DNA of 64,000 bases from Gemmatimonadota bacterium (GTDB lineage Bacteria > Gemmatimonadota > Gemmatimonadetes > Longimicrobiales > Gaopeijiaceae), in the NCBI GenBank assembly GCA_022825135.1, contig JAJDYN010000005.1, forward strand, positions 1 through 64,000. The letters run 5' to 3'. Positions 47,909 to 55,671 of this stretch are shown piece by piece. A program made the position numbers and the translations under genes. Positions within the stretch are counted from its first letter, which is position 1. Every line of letters starts with the position of its first letter. The notes under the pieces were generated by a model that saw nothing but the letters and a program-made list of their open reading frames with translations, was not told the DNA's origin and searched no databases.

Positions 47909-48673
47909 ATGCTCAGGACGCTGCTCCTCGAAGAGATGACCTGGCCCGAGGTGGAGGGGGCTCTGGCCGGCGGGTTTGACTCGGTCGTCGTGGCCGTGGG
48001 CGCGATCGAACAGCACGGCAGGCACCTGCCGCTGCTGGTGGATGCGGTGCGCGGCGACCGGCTGGCGCTCGAGGTGGCGCGCCGTCTGGGGCGCAGCCTC
48101 GTGGGGCCCACGATTCGCGTGGGATGCTCCGAGCACCATATGGGTTTTCCGGGCACGATTTCGGTGAAGACGGACACCCTCAAGGCAGTGTGTCGCGACT
48201 ACGTGACCAGCCTCGCACGCCACGGCTTCCGCAACGTGTACCTGGTGCCGTCCCACGGAGGCAACTTCGCGCCCCTGGCGACCATGCTGGAGGAGCTTCG
48301 GGCCGCAGGCGGGTCCAAGTGCGAGGTACACGCCTATACCGACCTGCTCGAGTTCGTGGGTTTGTGGGAGGAAGCGGTGCGGGAGGTGGCGCCCGAACTC
48401 ACCCGGGGCGTGGGAGGCCACGCGGACATCGCGGAGAGTTCGGAGATGCTCTGCATCCGGCCCGACCTGGTGCGGGAGGAGCTGGCCGAGCCGGGGTACG
48501 TCGGCGGCTTCGACGCGGCGCTGGCGGAGCGGATCTTCGCGGAGGGGCTTCGCGCGGTCACCGCCAACGGCGTGCTCGGCGACCCCCGGGGGATGAGCCG
48601 CGAGATCGGGGAGCGGTGCATCGCCCGCGCGGCCGAGGGCATCGCGGCGGCGTTCCAGGCAGAAGGGAGGTGA
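47909..48673 (+). CDS. Creatininase-family amidohydrolase
   Basis: A 254-residue protein with the binuclear metal motifs of the family: A-I-E-Q-H-G-R-H-L-P-L-L-V-D-A (Glu, His, Asp ligands), V-P-S-H-G-G-N-F, and G-G-H-A-D-I-A-E-S-S-E. Members hydrolyse creatinine, FAPy or mycofactocin precursors, and related cyclic amides; the substrate here is not determinable. It stands alone, transcribed away from proline dehydrogenase (238-base gap without recognisable sites), and ends one base before the kinase gene on the opposite strand. Confidence 0.82.
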   Translation: MLRTLLLEEMTWPEVEGALAGGFDSVVVAVGAIEQHGRHLPLLVDAVRGDRLALEVARRLGRSLVGPTIRVGCSEHHMGFPGTISVKTDTLKAVCRDYVTSLARHGFRNVYLVPSHGGNFAPLATMLEELRAAGGSKCEVHAYTDLLEFVGLWEEAVREVAPELTRGVGGHADIAESSEMLCIRPDLVREELAEPGYVGGFDAALAERIFAEGLRAVTANGVLGDPRGMSREIGERCIARAAEGIAAAFQAEGR

Positions 48674-48674
48674 A

Positions 48675-49502
48675 TCAGCGACGAACAGATCGCACAGCTG
48701 CTTCCGGTCCTCGGGACGCGCTCGCAGCGGCGAACATCTCGTCAACACTATCCAGCTTCCTCCGCAATTCGCGCGGACTGAAGCCACGGTCATCCGCTGT
48801 TGGGTCTGACTCGACCAGGTATCGGCCCAGGAAGTCGTTTCTCAGAACTTCAAAGACGTAACGGTCCCGAAGTTGCAGTTCCTCGTACCTGACGCATTCC
48901 AGCAGTCCCTTCAGCGAACGCGCAATGCCCAGGTAGTCGATGGGATCCCCGTGTCCCGCCGGCTTGAAATCCATGACTCTAAACTGCATATCCCCTCTGA
49001 GATCGTACCGTGAGCGTGTTACCAGCACATTGTCCGCGTGAATGTCTCCGTGAACCATTCCGCGCTGTTCAAGCTCAAAGAGCAAACCAAACATGGCACT
49101 CAGGAATTGCTCGATAAACCCCAGCTCCACATTCCCCCGATTGGCCCTGATGAACTGCTCCAGCGACGTGCCCCTTACGTACTGGCGGACAAACACCACG
49201 AACTCGCGTCCCAACACGGGATCTTCCCAGGATTGCACATCCAGATACGGGACGACGCATGGATTCTCCAGAACATTCGCCTTCCTGGCTTCCTCGAGGT
49301 AGACGTCCGGCTCGTGTTGATACGCAGGAAGATTCTCTATTGGTACGAACTTGAACGCCAGGTCACCATCTATGTGGGCCGCATGTGCACGATATACACG
49401 ACCGATTGCCCCGGTACCGATGTGCTCTACGATTTCGTGGTTTCGAAAGAACGGAAAAGTCCTTCCCAGGAAGTGCTCTTCGGGAGGAAGTTGTCGTTGC
49501 AC
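48675..49502 (-). CDS. Protein-kinase-fold phosphotransferase with HGD-type catalytic loop
   Basis: A 275-residue cytosolic kinase fold. The glycine loop I-G-T-G-A-I-G-R-V-Y-R, the Lys in L-A-F-K-F-V, the catalytic loop H-G-D-I-H-A-D-N and the Asp in V-M-D-F-K are present. HGD-x-H-x-x-N instead of HRD, and DFK for DFG, are more typical of small-molecule or sugar kinases (LPS- or aminoglycoside-kinase-like) than of signalling Ser/Thr kinases. It is the last gene of the leftward four-gene operon, 13 bases after the GT9 gene. The GTG start has only a weak ribosome site. Lower GC than the neighbouring creatininase hints at transfer. It may phosphorylate the glycan or the secreted partner; inference. 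Confidence 0.72.
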   Translation of the reverse strand: MQRQLPPEEHFLGRTFPFFRNHEIVEHIGTGAIGRVYRAHAAHIDGDLAFKFVPIENLPAYQHEPDVYLEEARKANVLENPCVVPYLDVQSWEDPVLGREFVVFVRQYVRGTSLEQFIRANRGNVELGFIEQFLSAMFGLLFELEQRGMVHGDIHADNVLVTRSRYDLRGDMQFRVMDFKPAGHGDPIDYLGIARSLKGLLECVRYEELQLRDRYVFEVLRNDFLGRYLVESDPTADDRGFSPRELRRKLDSVDEMFAAASASRGPEAAVRSVRR

Positions 49503-49515
49503 CGGTCGGGAGAAC

Positions 49516-50493
49516 CTATTCTGGCCTGGACCGGGGATTCAGGTATTCGATTGCTCCGCCATCGAAGTACCACTGGATCCGGCGGATCACTTCTTCCGCA
49601 GTAATCATGTCCATGCAACGAGGCAGGTCGCCCACCACATCCACGCAGAGTTCGTCAGGCCCGTCCTTGTAGTCTCCATCGCCCAGCGGCACCGTTCGCG
49701 ACTTCCAGCATCCCCCGTTGTCGCAGCACCGCAGCGCACCGACGGTGTGAATGAACTGGTGGTGCGGGTAGGCCTCCCAGTGAGGTGGCTCGCGGCCGCC
49801 GGCCACGACTACGCACGGGCGGTTCCTGGGCATGCCGGGCTTCACCTCCACCGCTGCGGCCAGGTGCATCGGCAGACTGATCGGCGTCACGACGCCCTGC
49901 GCATGATACATGAGCCGCACGAGTTGACGAAGGGTGGTTTGCCCTCTCATGTCGACGACCCCGTCGAGCGGCGGATGATGATGTCCCACCTCCCCGATCT
50001 GGACGAACTCCACGCGGCCCCGAAAATGATCGACGACGGCCTGGTACCGTTGCGGATCCCACCACTTGATCGTGTAGTCGAACTTGCCCCCGGCGTCGAT
50101 CATCCAGAACGGGGTGGACTCCCCGTGAGCCTCCTGCACGCGGGAGAACCAATCCTTCTCACCATCCGAGATGTGAATGTCGCCCTTGAACGCCCCCGGC
50201 TCGATCCGAAGTCCCAGCTGCTCGTTCAGATAGTGGATGAAGCCGTGCAGGAAGTGATAGGGCCTTTGGTTGCTCTGGTGGATCAGCGGGTAGTGGCAGT
50301 CCACGACTTCCACCTCCGGATCGTCCTCGTTCAACGGCACGATATGCGGGTTGTTCTCCCACAACGCGGGACAGGAAGTGCGGACATCGGTCAGGAAACG
50401 TTCGGGATGGCACCTGTGCAGGTCGCGGACCGCGGCGGTGAGCATCACGATGTCACCCGGCGACTGAAAGTTCCTGAGTATCAGCTTGCGCAT
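49516..50493 (-). CDS. Glycosyltransferase family 9-like (ADP-heptose transferase-type) with cysteine cluster
   Basis: A 325-residue cytosolic GT-B-like protein opening M-R-K-L-I-L-R-N-F-Q-S-P-G-D-I-V-M-L-T, the GT9 heptosyltransferase N-terminus. Further GT9-like features are M-I-D-A-G-G-K-F and the nucleotide-sugar side T-P-I-S-L-P-M-H-L-A-A-A. Near residues 255-295 five cysteines occur as A-L-R-C-C-D-N-G-G-C-W, L-C-V-D and R-C-M-D. That recalls the iron-binding cysteine finger of autotransporter O-heptosyltransferases (TibC/AAH type). It lies 13 bases after the metalloprotease gene and 13 before the kinase. The adjacent substrate candidates are serine-tract lipoproteins. Protein glycosylation is inferred. 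Confidence 0.75.
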   Translation of the reverse strand: MRKLILRNFQSPGDIVMLTAAVRDLHRCHPERFLTDVRTSCPALWENNPHIVPLNEDDPEVEVVDCHYPLIHQSNQRPYHFLHGFIHYLNEQLGLRIEPGAFKGDIHISDGEKDWFSRVQEAHGESTPFWMIDAGGKFDYTIKWWDPQRYQAVVDHFRGRVEFVQIGEVGHHHPPLDGVVDMRGQTTLRQLVRLMYHAQGVVTPISLPMHLAAAVEVKPGMPRNRPCVVVAGGREPPHWEAYPHHQFIHTVGALRCCDNGGCWKSRTVPLGDGDYKDGPDELCVDVVGDLPRCMDMITAEEVIRRIQWYFDGGAIEYLNPRSRPE

Positions 50494-50506
50494 CGGCTGG
50501 CTGTTC

Positions 50507-53374
50507 TCATCGGACCCTGAAGGCCCATACCGATATGTGGCCCGGGATGGAAGCGCCGTTCGGAGACGTTACCCTGATGGACGTCGGCCCCCGCGAACCG
50601 CCTGGATTCCACTCCAGGTATGACGTGGATCCGGCTCGCACATTCCACTGGCGGGTGAACTCCGCGAATGTCGATTCGTAGGGCTGAAGATGGTGGCTCG
50701 GCCCGAAGCGGCTCCAGATGTCGTCGAGATCCCAGGTCGTCATGCCGAATGCATCCCAGCCGTTCAGATCGATCCACAGCGACATATAGAAGTCCGTAAG
50801 AACCTGTTCGGCCGGCCAGCCGCTAACGTTCGCCAGGGAAGCCAGCCCCATCGTGGGAGATCGCATGAGGCGATGCATCAGGGCCTTCTCGCCGCCCGGG
50901 TACTCGCCTCCCCAGCGGTCCATCGCGAACCGGAGCACCATTGACGGAACATCGTAGACGGCCCTGAACGCGTTGGTGCAAGGGCCGTCGTTTCCCTCCT
51001 CCGGGCTACCGATCCAGCTGCACTGCTCCGGCGCGTTCGGGATCCGGCGCGTGTCTGTCGGATCGTTCGAGTCCCACCCGAAGAACCTGGCCAGCCCGAA
51101 AGTCCATGCCTCGTACCAGTCACGGCCCTCAGACCACTGTGCGTATCCCATGTTCCGGCCCGATTCATGCCCGAAGAGGCCGTAGGCCACCAACTGTTCC
51201 GAGAGCGTCGCGCCGCCTTCCAGCTCCCAGGTGGTGAAGTTGGCTCCCCCGAACACCAGGGCGGCGCCCTGCGCGAGGTGGGCGATCTCGTGCGTCAGCA
51301 GAGACGGGTAGTATGCAAGGGTCTGCTCCTTCGTCCAGGCGTGTCCGAAGACACCCGCGGGATCGGGGACGCGACCAAAGAGAATCTCGGCCTGGTTGCT
51401 GGTGGCGCACTCCTCGGACGGATAGAGGTCTCCAAACCAGGCCCACCCCCCGAGGAACGAGTCCGGATCGTCCTGCTGGTTGGCCTGCTTCGTCATGAGG
51501 ATCGTGACTCGGCCGTTCCCGTCGACATCGGACAGGCCCCCAAAATAGTCGTTGTGTACCCCCTTCGCACGGGCTCCGTAGAAGGCGTCCAGTCCTGCAA
51601 GCTCGGAGTCGGTGAAGGTCCCGCTCGGGTTCTCGATGTCGTCGAGCCACACGGTGTGGTCGCCGATGCGCCGAACCACGGCCCGCATCTGGTCGCGGGC
51701 CGAGCAGGACGTGCCTCCGGCAAACAGGCTGAGCGTGTCTCCAACGGACAGAGCGAGCGTTTCTCGAGCACGCGCCATCGCAGGGTCCACTCGACCCAGC
51801 CTCCGGACGATCCCCCGGTTCCGGCTCATCACCTCGCTGTGGGGGCGCTCCCAGTCGTGCGGACCCTCGACGACCTCCTGCCGGGAAGGTGTGGCAGCGC
51901 CTGCCGGAGCGGCCACAGCGGCCCTCGTCACCGGGAACCGCGGGGCCGGCGCCACGGCTTCGCGGGGCGCCGCCGAGTAGGCGAAAGGCGATCGGGCGGC
52001 CACTACTGTCGGGTCTCCGACTATGCTGGTCGCGGCAACCGGAGTCAGAGAGGCCGGCTCTTCAGATATGGAGACCACTCCGATCACATATGCGCCTCCC
52101 GCATCGTCTCCCGGCAGGTGGAGGCAGCCGTTCCCGCCATAGGTGTAGCGGTACCAGCCCACGGGAAGATCGATGTCTTCCCTGCTGCGCGGGCTCACGC
52201 CCACCAGCCGGGCGTCACTGTCACCCTGCACCGTCACGCGCAGCTCGGCGCGCCGAGGGGGCAGGCAGTCGCTGTACGGGACCGTCACCGAAAGGCGCGT
52301 CGCACTCGACGCCGTCACGGTCGCGGCCAGACCCCCGATCATAACTTCGTTGTCGCCGGGAACACTCGAGAACCCGGAGCCGCTGATGGTCGCCTGCGCG
52401 CCCTCGAGCAACGTCGCCGGTGCGACATTGGAGATGACCAGGGACCCCGGGATCTCCGACGTCACCTGGATGCTCTGGCTGGCGCCCAGGCCTTCCGGAT
52501 CGGTTGCAGTGACCGTCACGGTCGCCGTCCCGGGCGTTACCGCGAGAATCTCAAACTCCTGCTCGGACACCGAGGCCAAAACTACGGATGCGTTGGTTGT
52601 GCCGGCCGTCAGCATCAACCGGTCGCCGTCCGGATCGTAGAAATGCTCGGATCCGGCCCACGATCGCGTCTCGCCGACCGTCAGGATCTGCGGAGGAATC
52701 GTGTCCGAAACTTCCGGCGCCCGGTTCGGCACCGTGACCGCGAAGGCCTGCCGGGCCGAGAGACCGCCCCCGTCCGTGGCCGTCACGGTCACCTCGGCGG
52801 TGCCCGACGCCACGCCGGCCACGGTCACGACACTCCCCGACACGGCCACCCTCACACGGGTCGTGTCCGACGAAACCGCCCCGAACTCCAGATCGTCGCC
52901 GTCCGGGTCCGAAAACTGCCCGGCGACGTCCACCTCCGACACCCCGCCCACGGCGACTGCCAGATCCCCGATCTCGCCGACCGCCTCCGGCGCCCGGTTC
53001 GGCACCGTGACGGCGAAGCTCTGCCGGGCCGAGAGGCCGCCCCCGTCCGTGGCCGTCACGGTCACCGCGGCGGCGCCCGACGCCACGCCGGCCACGGTCA
53101 GGACGCTGCCGGACACGGCCACGGATGCGACCGCCATGTCGGAGCTGGAGGCGCCATAGGTCAGGACATCCCCGTCAGGATCGGTAAAATAGCCGGCCAG
53201 GTTCACCGTGGCCGTCTCCGCGACGCCAACGGTCTGAGCCGGAATGGAGCCGCTGGGCAACGGCGCCCGGTTCGGAGTTGGTGCAGGCTCCGTGCTACCG
53301 TCGCCGCAGGCCGTGATCGACAGGGCGATCAATGCCGTGCCAAATAGGACCCGGCGAGCGCATGGGGGAGGCAT
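50507..53374 (-). CDS. Ig-like/cadherin-repeat lipoprotein with zinc metalloprotease-like domain
   Basis: A 955-residue lipoprotein (lipobox S-I-T-A-C near residue 23). Three tandem Ig-like/cadherin-like repeats of about 90 residues follow, each with N-R-A-P, D-P-D-G-D and T-V-T-A-T-D. Next is an IPT/TIG-like domain (V-I-S-N-V-A-P-A-T-L-L-E-G-A), a linker, and a C-terminal peptidase-like domain with the zinc motif L-T-H-E-I-A-H-L-A near residue 695 and E-G-G-A-T downstream. Its Ig repeats are close copies of the one in the serine-tract lipoprotein encoded just upstream. It could process or display that partner at the surface. It begins 57 bases after that gene in the same operon. Confidence 0.78.
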   Translation of the reverse strand: MPPPCARRVLFGTALIALSITACGDGSTEPAPTPNRAPLPSGSIPAQTVGVAETATVNLAGYFTDPDGDVLTYGASSSDMAVASVAVSGSVLTVAGVASGAAAVTVTATDGGGLSARQSFAVTVPNRAPEAVGEIGDLAVAVGGVSEVDVAGQFSDPDGDDLEFGAVSSDTTRVRVAVSGSVVTVAGVASGTAEVTVTATDGGGLSARQAFAVTVPNRAPEVSDTIPPQILTVGETRSWAGSEHFYDPDGDRLMLTAGTTNASVVLASVSEQEFEILAVTPGTATVTVTATDPEGLGASQSIQVTSEIPGSLVISNVAPATLLEGAQATISGSGFSSVPGDNEVMIGGLAATVTASSATRLSVTVPYSDCLPPRRAELRVTVQGDSDARLVGVSPRSREDIDLPVGWYRYTYGGNGCLHLPGDDAGGAYVIGVVSISEEPASLTPVAATSIVGDPTVVAARSPFAYSAAPREAVAPAPRFPVTRAAVAAPAGAATPSRQEVVEGPHDWERPHSEVMSRNRGIVRRLGRVDPAMARARETLALSVGDTLSLFAGGTSCSARDQMRAVVRRIGDHTVWLDDIENPSGTFTDSELAGLDAFYGARAKGVHNDYFGGLSDVDGNGRVTILMTKQANQQDDPDSFLGGWAWFGDLYPSEECATSNQAEILFGRVPDPAGVFGHAWTKEQTLAYYPSLLTHEIAHLAQGAALVFGGANFTTWELEGGATLSEQLVAYGLFGHESGRNMGYAQWSEGRDWYEAWTFGLARFFGWDSNDPTDTRRIPNAPEQCSWIGSPEEGNDGPCTNAFRAVYDVPSMVLRFAMDRWGGEYPGGEKALMHRLMRSPTMGLASLANVSGWPAEQVLTDFYMSLWIDLNGWDAFGMTTWDLDDIWSRFGPSHHLQPYESTFAEFTRQWNVRAGSTSYLEWNPGGSRGPTSIRVTSPNGASIPGHISVWAFRVR

Positions 53375-53431
53375 CTGGTTGGTCTCCGGTGCAACCGCGG
53401 GTTGCTGTGACCGGTTCGCTTCGCGTCAGCT

Positions 53432-54346
53432 CTAGGACGAACTACTCGAACTGGTCGACGACGAGCCGCTGCTCGAACTCGACAAGGAACCACCGGATGC
53501 CTGGCCCCCACCCCAGCCGCTGCTCGAACTCGACGACGAACTGCTCGAACTGGACGACGAACCGCCGGAAGCATTGCCCCCACCCCGACCGCCGTTGCTC
53601 GACGAGCTGCTCGAACTCGACGACGAGCTGCTCGAACTCGACGACGAACTGCTCGAACTCGAACTGGACGACGAACTGCTCGAACTGGGCGACGACGTGA
53701 CCATGAATCTCTGCGAGGTCGAGAGACCGCCCCCGTCCGTGGCAAACACTGTTACCCTGGCGGTGCCCGCCGCCAAGGCGGCGATGGTCACAACCTTGCC
53801 GGACAAGTTCACCCTCACACGTCTCCTGTCCGACGAAACTGCCTCGAAGTCAAGTTCGTCTCCGTCGGGGTCGTCGAAGTACCCGGCGACATCCAGCTCA
53901 GCCACGCTGTTGACCTCGATCTCCATGTCCCTGATCCTGCCGACACGCTCCGGCGCTCGGTTGGAATCCGAACTCGAACTGGAGGACGAGCTGCTACTCG
54001 AACTGGACGATGAGGAGCTGCTGGAACTCGATGAGGAACTGCTGGAACTCGAAGACGAGGAACTCGAAGACGAACTGCTGCTGCTGGAGCTCGAGGAACT
54101 GCTGCTGGAACTCGACGACGAGGAACTGCTGCTGGAACTCGACGAGGAGGAACTCGACGACGCGATGCTATTCGACGACCACCTGCTGGACCCATCGTCG
54201 TCAGGACCAACAAGACCAACGCCGGCATACGTGCAGGCAGCAAGTTGCGTCATCCCGGCACTCACTACCCCGCCCGCCAGAAGTCGCAGGAATGCCCGCC
54301 GGTCCTCCCGGTGGCCGGAATCGGAGCCTCTCGTAGAATCCTGCAC
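53432..54346 (-). CDS. Tat-type lipoprotein with very long polyserine tracts
   Basis: A 304-residue protein. The N-terminus has R-R-A-F-L-R-L-L-A-G-G and a lipobox L-A-A-C (about residue 38), a twin-arginine lipoprotein signal. Then come 64 consecutive serines (residues 63-126), one Ig-like repeat (about 130-217), 30 serines (221-250), a Gly/Asn-rich linker, 14 serines, and a Ser/Gly/Thr tail. Tract 1 uses all six serine codons. Start GTG 54346 follows AGGAG at a 6-base spacing. First of four leftward genes. Long serine tracts are known flexible linkers and O-modification targets; with the downstream GT9 and kinase, a modified surface fibre is the likeliest role (inference). The opposite strand shows a Leu/Glu/Asp-rich shadow only. 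Confidence 0.75.
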   Translation of the reverse strand: MQDSTRGSDSGHREDRRAFLRLLAGGVVSAGMTQLAACTYAGVGLVGPDDDGSSRWSSNSIASSSSSSSSSSSSSSSSSSSSSSSSSSSSSSSSSSSSSSSSSSSSSSSSSSSSSSSSSSSSSSSSDSNRAPERVGRIRDMEIEVNSVAELDVAGYFDDPDGDELDFEAVSSDRRRVRVNLSGKVVTIAALAAGTARVTVFATDGGGLSTSQRFMVTSSPSSSSSSSSSSSSSSSSSSSSSSSSSSSSSSNGGRGGGNASGGSSSSSSSSSSSSSSGWGGGQASGGSLSSSSSGSSSTSSSSSS

Positions 54347-54702: not shown

Positions 54703-55671
54703 ATGAAGCCGGGCGGCCCCATCGACCTGGCCGACATCCGGACGGCGCGCGGGCGCATCGCCGGAGCCGCCATCCGCACGCCGCTGGTGCGCCTGGAGGC
54801 GTCCGGGGCGACCGCCGAGGTGTGGCTCAAGCTCGAGTGTCTGCAGCCCATCGGGTCGTTCAAGATCCGCGGGGCCGCCAACGCCATGGCGCTCGCCGAT
54901 CCCGCCCGGCTGGCGCGCGGAGTCTACACCGGGAGCGCCGGCAACATGGCCCAGGGGGTCGCGTACGAGGCCCGGCGGCGCGGGATCCCCTGCCGTGTGA
55001 TCGTGCCGGACACCGCCCCGGCGGCCAAGCTCGACGCCATCGCCCGACTGGGAGCCACCGCCGTTCAGGTACCGTTCGCGGAGTGGTGGGGGGTGCTGCG
55101 CGACCACGGCCGTCCCGCCGAGGAGGGCTTCTTCGTCCACCCGGTCAGCGATCCGGCCGTGATCGCCGGCAACGGCACCATCGGGCTCGAGATCGTGGAG
55201 GACCTGCCGGACGTGCGCGCGGTGGTGGTTCCCTTCGGCGGGGGTGGCCTGTCGTGCGGGATTGCCACGGCCGTGCGCGCGATCCGGCCGGAGGCGCGGG
55301 TGTTCGCGGCCGAGGTGGAGACGGCGGCCCCGCTGGCCGCGTCGCTGGCGGCCGGCGAGCCGGTGGAGGTCGCGCACACCCGCTCGTTCGTGGACGGGAT
55401 CGGGGGCGCCGGCCTTCTGCCCGGGATGTGGCCGCTGGCCCGCGCGCTCCTGGCCGGGTCGCGGGTCGTGTCGCTCGAAGATGTCCGCGGGGCGATCCGG
55501 CTGCTCGCCGAGCGCGTGCATGTCGTCGCGGAGGGGGCGGGCGGGGCGGCGGTGGCGGCGGCGCTGCGGGGGCTCCCCGGGGTCGACGACGGCCCGGTCG
55601 TCGCGGTGGTGTCGGGCGGCAACATCGACGCGCGCGTGCTCGCGGCCATCCTCGAGGGCCGGGAAGCCTGA
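54703..55671 (+). CDS. Threonine/serine dehydratase-like PLP enzyme
   Basis: A 322-residue fold-type II PLP enzyme. The Schiff-base Lys is in G-S-F-K-I-R-G-A, phosphate/ring contacts in S-A-G-N-M-A-Q-G and the Gly loop F-G-G-G-G-L-S-C-G, and a C-terminal V-V-S-G-G-N-I-D completes the family pattern. It deaminates threonine or serine to the 2-oxo acid, or is a racemase or hydroxyaspartate-type relative. There is no C-terminal ACT domain, so it is the catabolic or non-regulated short form. Start ATG 54703 follows AAGG. An M50-like gene follows 64 bases downstream. Confidence 0.8.
   Translation: MKPGGPIDLADIRTARGRIAGAAIRTPLVRLEASGATAEVWLKLECLQPIGSFKIRGAANAMALADPARLARGVYTGSAGNMAQGVAYEARRRGIPCRVIVPDTAPAAKLDAIARLGATAVQVPFAEWWGVLRDHGRPAEEGFFVHPVSDPAVIAGNGTIGLEIVEDLPDVRAVVVPFGGGGLSCGIATAVRAIRPEARVFAAEVETAAPLAASLAAGEPVEVAHTRSFVDGIGGAGLLPGMWPLARALLAGSRVVSLEDVRGAIRLLAERVHVVAEGAGGAAVAAALRGLPGVDDGPVVAVVSGGNIDARVLAAILEGREA

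Follow-up and report, generated by a model that had tools for sequence, protein, structure and literature searches.

The window analysed here, a stretch of 64,000 nucleotides from a Gemmatimonadota bacterium (assembly GCA_022825135.1, contig JAJDYN010000005.1, positions 1 to 64,000), carries a minus-strand operon encoding a polyserine lipoprotein, an immunoglobulin (Ig)-repeat metalloprotease lipoprotein, a glycosyltransferase of the GT9 kind (hereafter GT9) and a kinase. The recurrent unit is the pair formed by the GT9 gene and a gene for a polyserine protein, which is both smaller and more widely distributed than the four-gene operon. We consider it probable that the GT9 O-heptosylates the polyserine tracts of the co-encoded protein, with ADP-heptose as the donor. 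The original prediction had proposed a dedicated O-glycosylation or phospho-glycan modification system for a serine-rich exported protein; its observation is confirmed and its interpretation partly supported, with the glycosylation reading strengthened. The features of the operon are as follows.

53432..54346, minus strand: polyserine lipoprotein of the twin-arginine translocation (Tat) type, putative acceptor (304 amino acids, aa; open reading frame)
54233..54301, minus strand: twin-arginine signal to lipobox, lipoprotein residues 16-38 (from the sequence)
53969..54160, minus strand: serine tract 1 of the lipoprotein, 64 residues
53696..53929, minus strand: Big_9 Ig-like domain of the lipoprotein (Pfam), a near-copy of those of the protease
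53597..53686, minus strand: serine tract 2 of the lipoprotein, 30 residues
53519..53560, minus strand: serine tract 3 of the lipoprotein, 14 residues
50507..53374, minus strand: Ig/protease lipoprotein-type gene (955 aa; signal judged by eye)
51278-51292, minus strand: HEIAH motif, protease residues 695-699
49516..50493, minus strand: GT9-fold glycosyltransferase, predicted polyserine O-heptosyltransferase (325 aa; PF01075, AF2, Foldseek)
50452..50454, minus strand: D14 of the GT9, candidate catalytic base (invariant in the 56 rows of alignment A1)
49615..49728, minus strand: four-cysteine site of the GT9, C256, C262, C283 and C293, plus C257 (invariant in the 56 rows of A1)
48675..49502, minus strand: Hanks-like kinase (275 aa; PF00069; PknB-like)

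The recurrent GT9-polyserine gene pair

The genes lie in the order lipoprotein, protease, GT9 and kinase, with intergenic gaps of 57, 13 and 13 bases, in agreement with the original coordinates. The N-terminus of the lipoprotein has a LAAC lipobox preceded by the twin-arginine signal RRAFLRLL, and three serine runs come after it (64, 30 and 14 residues); the RRxFL signal and the lipobox cysteine are present both here and in the homologues, which identifies it as a Tat lipoprotein with predicted export. All three runs are encoded by a mixture of codons (for the longest, TCG 18, TCC 15, AGT 14, AGC 13, TCT 2 and TCA 2), so that a simple DNA repeat, or an artefact at the DNA level, can be ruled out.

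A scan of genome contigs yielded 67 GT9-family loci, 66 of which were counted, a score limit having removed L077 with its 40-residue GT9 fragment (loci and genomes are designated by L and G numbers). A strict tract was defined as at least 30 serines in a 50-residue window of an open frame, within 4 kb of the GT9. The controls were loci around canonical GT9 genes in 30 host genomes; 37 of the 40 were used, since L083, L088 and L101 contain relatives of the window GT9 (L101, the only one of the three with a tract, overlaps L021). A strict tract was found within 4 kb in 27 of the 66 cellular loci (in 15 of them within 500 bases) and in none of the 37 control loci, anywhere in the stretch (one-sided Fisher test, p 5e-7), and this recurrent co-localisation supports the proposed O-glycosylation system. 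With one locus per 90% cluster the tract was present in 19/53 (p 8e-6), and it was present in 21/38 of the loci whose sequence extends 4 kb to either side. The window-type loci L011, L013, L015 and L020, in which the lipoprotein gene is missing or rearranged, were counted as lacking a tract. When the criterion was relaxed to 12 of 20 residues anywhere in the locus, the counts were 41/64 against 3/37, some of the 41 probably being spurious frames.

The gene immediately after the GT9 encodes a polyserine Tat lipoprotein at two loci of Gemmatimonadota (L021, L022) and three of Acidobacteriota (L025, L026, L072). Partners of this type were found in these two phyla and at one Armatimonadota locus, and an RRxFL or RRxLL start also occurs in the Acidobacteriota and Armatimonadota partners. 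At L032, from the cultured Chthoniobacter flavus Ellin428, a polyserine gene stands immediately upstream of the GT9. The partners in Planctomycetota, Verrucomicrobiota and Paraburkholderia are very long proteins, with RHS repeats in three of the five examined (a strong match in L059, weak ones in L057 and L061, from Planctomycetota and Verrucomicrobiota). Three further observations concern the partners. The serine-rich neighbour in Paraburkholderia silviterrae (L037:2352-6053) has a DUF6519 domain, a possible link to injection-type structures. L017 and L022 share a genome name (one metagenome-assembled genome) and are two different GT9-polyserine units; their GT9s share 94% and 84% identity, respectively, with that of the window. 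The tract protein of L030 had been taken by eye for a tail sheath, an identity that received no Pfam support.

The co-occurrence of all four genes, put forward originally as a check, holds in part: the set recurs in L011-L020 and is not the general recurrent unit. Protease, GT9 and kinase genes occur together at all ten of these loci, and the complete set is visible at six (L012, L014 and L016-L019); in L011, L013 and L015 the contig end falls inside the protease gene, and the upstream region of L020 is rearranged. This conservation argues against a chance arrangement.

Long serine tracts are also known from exported proteins of Saccharophagus and Teredinibacter, where the accounts available to us describe them as linkers. 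We know of no GT9 partner for these proteins. The serine-rich repeat glycoproteins of Gram-positive bacteria likewise have a serine-rich stalk that is glycosylated in the cytoplasm before export, with different transferases, a Sec-type accessory export system and Ser-X repeats. Word searches of an open-access library (few subscription papers and no bioRxiv preprints being covered) gave no title or abstract that describes a GT9-polyserine pair.

The GT9 family and its probable donor

The window GT9 matches PF01075 just above the cut-off of 22 (24.2 bits, E 2.4e-5), over 38 residues only. Its AlphaFold2 (AF2) model has a mean predicted local distance difference test (pLDDT) value of 93.8, with a strand at residues 2-8 and a helix at 12-28, and predicts a GT-B fold of the GT9 kind. 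In Foldseek, 3tov (E 4e-12), 1psw (E 5e-11) and WaaC came first; chains of TibC followed, with E near 1e-8 and a TM-score of about 0.6. The model also matches the plant PSI-NDH chains 9grx_1 and 7f9o_6 (E 1e-5 to 1e-4), an unexpected place for such a match.

To judge from its conserved residues (D14, K143 and four C-terminal cysteines), the family is distinct. In the combined alignment, C256, C283 and C293 are present in 58/58 cellular rows and C262 in 57/58. One of the two scan patterns demanded C256, C257 and C262; C283, C293, D14 and K143 were in neither. A loose cysteine pattern was found in 53 of the 56 aligned family members, against one of the 15 canonical GT9s (out of 37) covered by this control.

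The family was found on IMG/VR contigs, in Gemmatimonadota (84-97% identity to the window GT9) and Acidobacteriota (70-76%), and also in Verrucomicrobiota, Planctomycetota, Armatimonadota, Pseudomonadota and other groups, where the identity is about 46-73% apart from outliers at 38% and 34%. In the Gemmatimonadota set, the near-identical L013 and L014 are labelled as other phyla, perhaps through misbinning. A tree of the 56 members follows phylum for the most part, with some mixing, two long branches and bootstrap values that are not fully settled. The family is rare: at E <= 1e-40 it was found in 2/194 Verrucomicrobiota and 3/246 Planctomycetota genomes, each count including one seed genome, and searches of the plasmid and named-phage collections with the window GT9 gave no hit. 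Mannosyl_trans3, second GT9 or methyltransferase domains often form a fusion with the GT9, or come after it, in Verrucomicrobiota and Planctomycetota; 8 of the 9 GT9 tails tested matched such a domain, as expected for a glycan-building locus. Small genes or N-terminal stretches beside the GT9 in L183, L059, L034 and L174 have an RRSGNHA-like P-loop start that looks sulfotransferase-like by eye; none of the four sequences tested gave a Pfam sulfotransferase match.

The closest known enzyme is TibC. The available text of the TibC study (PMC4358343) describes heptosylation of serines of the autotransporters TibA and AIDA-I, with D110 as the catalytic base, K230 at the donor phosphate, and iron bound through C339, C342, C358 and C370, mutation of any one of which abolishes activity. 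As far as that description extends, the window GT9 resembles the TibC/AAH group (BAHT, TIGR04414) in its GT-B fold of the GT9 kind, its candidate catalytic aspartate, its putative donor-binding lysine and a four-cysteine site in the C-terminal lobe. Counted from the catalytic aspartate, the cysteines lie at +229 to +260 in TibC and at +242 to +279 in the window GT9, so that the spacing differs, and the last cysteines lie 32-36 residues from the end of both proteins. The two sites appear to be of the same kind, and shared descent is likely. The originally suggested similarity to TibC/AAH thus stands for the fold and the four-cysteine site, but not for family membership: the window GT9 had no TIGR04414 match at E up to 1, and by profile the family falls outside this group. 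A search for bridging sequences that might link it to TibC gave weak, partial TIGR04414 matches in 16/119 Planctomycetota genomes, none over the cut-off. The presumed acceptors also differ from those of BAHT, being polyserine lipoproteins, RHS-repeat proteins or phage-encoded proteins, and the family extends to viral contigs.

With WaaC, WaaF and WaaQ the family shares its fold and, weakly, the sequence around the HxAAA region; it differs from them in its conserved cysteine cluster and its polyserine neighbours, and it lies far under their family cut-offs. The best of the 56 members scored 31.1 bits with the NCBIfam models of lipopolysaccharide (LPS) heptosyltransferases, against a cut-off of 134.6, and the window GT9 20.9 bits against 170.2. 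On these scores the GT9 does not group firmly with the LPS core heptosyltransferases, a grouping that would have told against the original proposal.

Genes for ADP-heptose synthesis accompany some relatives. A two-domain HldE-type gene, encoding a bifunctional heptose kinase/ADP-heptose synthase, follows the GT9 on the same strand at seven planctomycete loci (L048, L049, L050, L052, L054, L057 and L058), and at L067 one lies nearby on the opposite strand. These genes match NF008454 with E 7e-114 to 7e-128 (381-427 bits), all under the curated cut-off of 521. A protein with a run of 6-13 serines is encoded next or nearly next in L049, L050, L052, L054 and L057. A gene similar to HldE domain II was found on two viral contigs (L236 and L216), and at the additional locus L262 an HldE domain II gene stands right beside the GT9. 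HldE domain II reached E 9.5e-46 or better in 27 of the 28 host genomes tested, 18 of them exceeding the curated cut-off, and is weak in G151. The HldE genes support ADP-heptose, the likely donor, but lend no support to a protein acceptor.

Alternatively, the GT9 might act on the serine tract or its glycan with a sugar other than heptose, or extend a glycan begun by another enzyme. The window GT9 has no adjacent HldE gene, other transferases accompany the GT9 in many loci, HldE adjacency is not specific, and the donor is predicted. However, the HldE genes of the planctomycete loci, L262 and the two viral contigs favour heptose, as do D14 and K143, placed as in heptosyltransferases, and L021, L022 and some Acidobacteriota loci lack a second transferase next to the GT9. 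We regard this alternative as unlikely.

Viral contigs and the weighing of the evidence

A search of IMG/VR with alignment A1 (tblastn, E up to 1e-3) gave 127 stretches. The best 80, some of which are near-copies, encode GT9 relatives 37-62% identical, on contigs of up to 548 kb; a viral label is no proof that each contig is phage. D14, K143, C256, C262, C283 and C293 are retained in all 77 aligned homologues, three of the 80 being left unaligned. Of the 80, 24 have a strict tract at a distance of up to 4 kb (p 3e-5), as do 16/58 after 90% clustering. Four of the first ten neighbour proteins match phage families: the major head protein (L233, L236), the major tail protein (L159, where the tract is weaker, with 29 serines of 50) and the tape measure protein (L228). 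A comparison of 70 neighbours from 18 loci (out of 135 in 24) with PHROGs gave few matches, the structural ones being mostly the same head and tail proteins.

The head protein of L236, used as a query, retrieved 15 contigs. Eight close relatives (67-100% identity, L237-L244, with L237 corresponding to the seed contig) include six with a polyserine gene, followed by the GT9 in the four whose contig continues. The contigs of L240 and L241 stop 1.4 and 0.5 kb past the head gene, with neither gene visible, and those of L245-L247 are too short past the head gene to be judged. Four distant relatives (33-37%) have neither a polyserine gene nor the GT9. In mycobacteriophages, capsid and tail tube subunits carry glycans at their C-termini (cited in PMC12619734), a source whose available text mentions neither a polyserine tract nor a four-cysteine GT9. 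Among the viral contigs L174, L178, L183, L228, L233 and L236, one to three polyserine genes surround the GT9, and some add a glycosyltransferase, methyltransferase or LicD-like gene, an arrangement that looks like a virion decoration module.

Several observations weigh against heptosylation of the tracts by the GT9. A strict tract was absent within 4 kb from 39/66 cellular and 56/80 viral loci, some on truncated contigs and many not, and the viral statistic relies on the cellular controls. After 60% clustering of the cellular loci, 2/9 representatives retained a tract (p 0.035). Four additional loci, found by profile rather than through the peptide patterns, had none within 4 kb (0/4), L260 having a run of 50 serines 4.2 kb from the GT9. 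Among the planctomycete HldE loci, only L057 satisfied the strict tract definition. The HldE motif was found in 7/40 control stretches around canonical GT9s and in 10/67 family loci, similar frequencies that a general clustering of heptose genes with GT9s of any kind would produce; adjacency therefore also fits LPS heptose genes. As for the enzyme, TibC has an N-terminal beta-barrel that the window GT9 lacks (its GD motif is at residue 14), Foldseek placed 3tov, 1psw and WaaC above TibC, and a PDB search with the A1 profile, at E up to 1, recovered no chain of TibC; one of the 56 members matched TIGR04414, with 23.3 bits against a cut-off of 200, and the loose cysteine pattern does occur in a canonical GT9. 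The tract count at the four additional loci and the similar frequency of HldE-like genes near canonical GT9s lowered the weight that we give to tract heptosylation and to the mobile module proposed below.

Much of this evidence would also fit a GT9 making LPS or another surface glycan, with the polyserine gene as an incidental neighbour: LPS heptosyltransferase models are its best sequence matches, a strict tract is absent from most loci, and HldE serves LPS too. Such a neighbour would hardly account for the absence of tracts from the canonical GT9 neighbourhoods, the pairing in several phyla, or its occurrence on phage contigs with head or tail genes, and we consider this explanation quite improbable.

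Tract heptosylation remains the preferred interpretation. The system would then be a variant form of protein O-glycosylation by heptosyltransferases, not something wholly new. We suggest more tentatively, as a possibility slightly short of an even chance, a mobile polyserine-heptosylation module shared by bacteria and phages, in which an iron-finger GT9, in some cases accompanied by an ADP-heptose synthase of its own, would convert homopolymeric serine tracts into a dense sugar brush on lipoproteins, RHS-repeat proteins and phage virion proteins.

The operon in its genus and the proposed mechanism

The horizontal arrival suggested originally is supported by the distribution of the operon within the genus. 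In the window it lies between two plus-strand genes.

47909..48673, plus strand: creatininase-like gene, left border of the islet (PF02633)
54703..55671, plus strand: PALP enzyme gene, right border of the islet (PF00291)

The creatininase gene was strongly matched in 10 of the 11 genomes of the genus, the window's own included. In seven congeners (G001, G003, G004, G005, G007, G008 and G010) the PALP gene comes immediately after it, with the two protein matches 61 bases apart in six and abutting in G005, whereas in the window and L012 the operon lies between the two. The operon therefore comes and goes within the genus as a block of about 6 kb. It directly adjoins the creatininase gene in G009 and G002, the contigs of which stop before the PALP position, and pieces of it are present on other contigs in G001 and G004. 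No convincing terminal repeats or target-site duplication were found at the islet ends. Among the 147 genomes searched, the window's own included, nine have a GT9 match, full-length and strong in four (G000, G002, G009 and G083) and cut by the contig end in G001. The empty site is better evidence for transfer than low GC content, which is weak evidence: low GC had been noted for the last two genes, and holds for the kinase (0.557) but not clearly for the GT9 (0.621), the values for the lipoprotein and protease being 0.620 and 0.673. Only the kinase clearly stands out.

The protease contains three Big_9 domains, one TIG domain and a C-terminal metalloprotease part. The Ig domain of the lipoprotein is, as originally noted, a near-copy of that of this HEIAH protease (75% DNA identity, 267-nucleotide repeat D2). 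The C-terminal part has the HExxH motif and weakly matches lugdulysin, a protein of solved structure (E 0.0011 over 119 residues), and may be an M30-like metalloprotease. It was matched in 111/147 genomes, many of them without a window-type GT9, so a widespread protein family is the probable source of the protease.

The kinase had been read as having a sugar-kinase-like loop, an identity disfavoured by Pfam: it exceeds the cut-off of 31.7 for PF00069 (43.5 bits, E 3.4e-11) and falls marginally under that of the APH model (23.0 against 23.2). Its HGDIHADN and DFK motifs, and the invariance of AFKF, HGD and DFK in 12 aligned sequences, window included, indicate a Hanks-type kinase with predicted activity. 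Because the kinase resembles protein kinases, the phospho-glycan step proposed originally receives no direct support. Its structure model (pLDDT 47.8) was too poor for use. The kinase was seen in only one Gemmatimonadota lineage (6/147 genomes, the window's own counted), and no close copy was found beside the GT9 in the loci of the wider family; protease and kinase are lineage-specific additions. It is conserved with the four-gene form, and the serine tract of the window could conceivably be mainly its substrate, as a phospho-serine stalk, with the GT9 secondary. Given the wider family without a close kinase copy beside the GT9, and the altered HGD and DFK loops, this is very improbable.

On the heptosylation reading, the GT9 would be a protein O-heptosyltransferase with a four-cysteine finger, probably metal-binding, that uses cytoplasmic ADP-heptose on the serines of the polyserine tracts of the co-encoded protein. 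The acceptor in the window, as a Tat lipoprotein, would be modified in the cytoplasm and then displayed at the surface as a sugar-coated stalk; in phages, the tracts would be modified in the cytoplasm before virion assembly. In the lineage studied here, the Ig-repeat metalloprotease lipoprotein and the Hanks-like kinase would have been added, perhaps for processing of the stalk and for regulation or phosphorylation, respectively, roles that are guesses.

To our knowledge, bacterial protein heptosylation has been documented mainly for autotransporters of pathogens. If the mobile module suggested above exists, its GT9s would form a second protein heptosyltransferase family, and a new kind of virion glycosylation would be involved. 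Protein heptosylation would be widened by a separate enzyme family whose partners are polyserine proteins, spread over several phyla and phage contigs, and polyserine tracts would gain a function. The serine homopolymer would be a simple acceptor for studies of processive O-glycosylation, and the two-gene unit is small enough for co-expression. The phage contigs would suggest that some environmental phages have sugar-coated virions.

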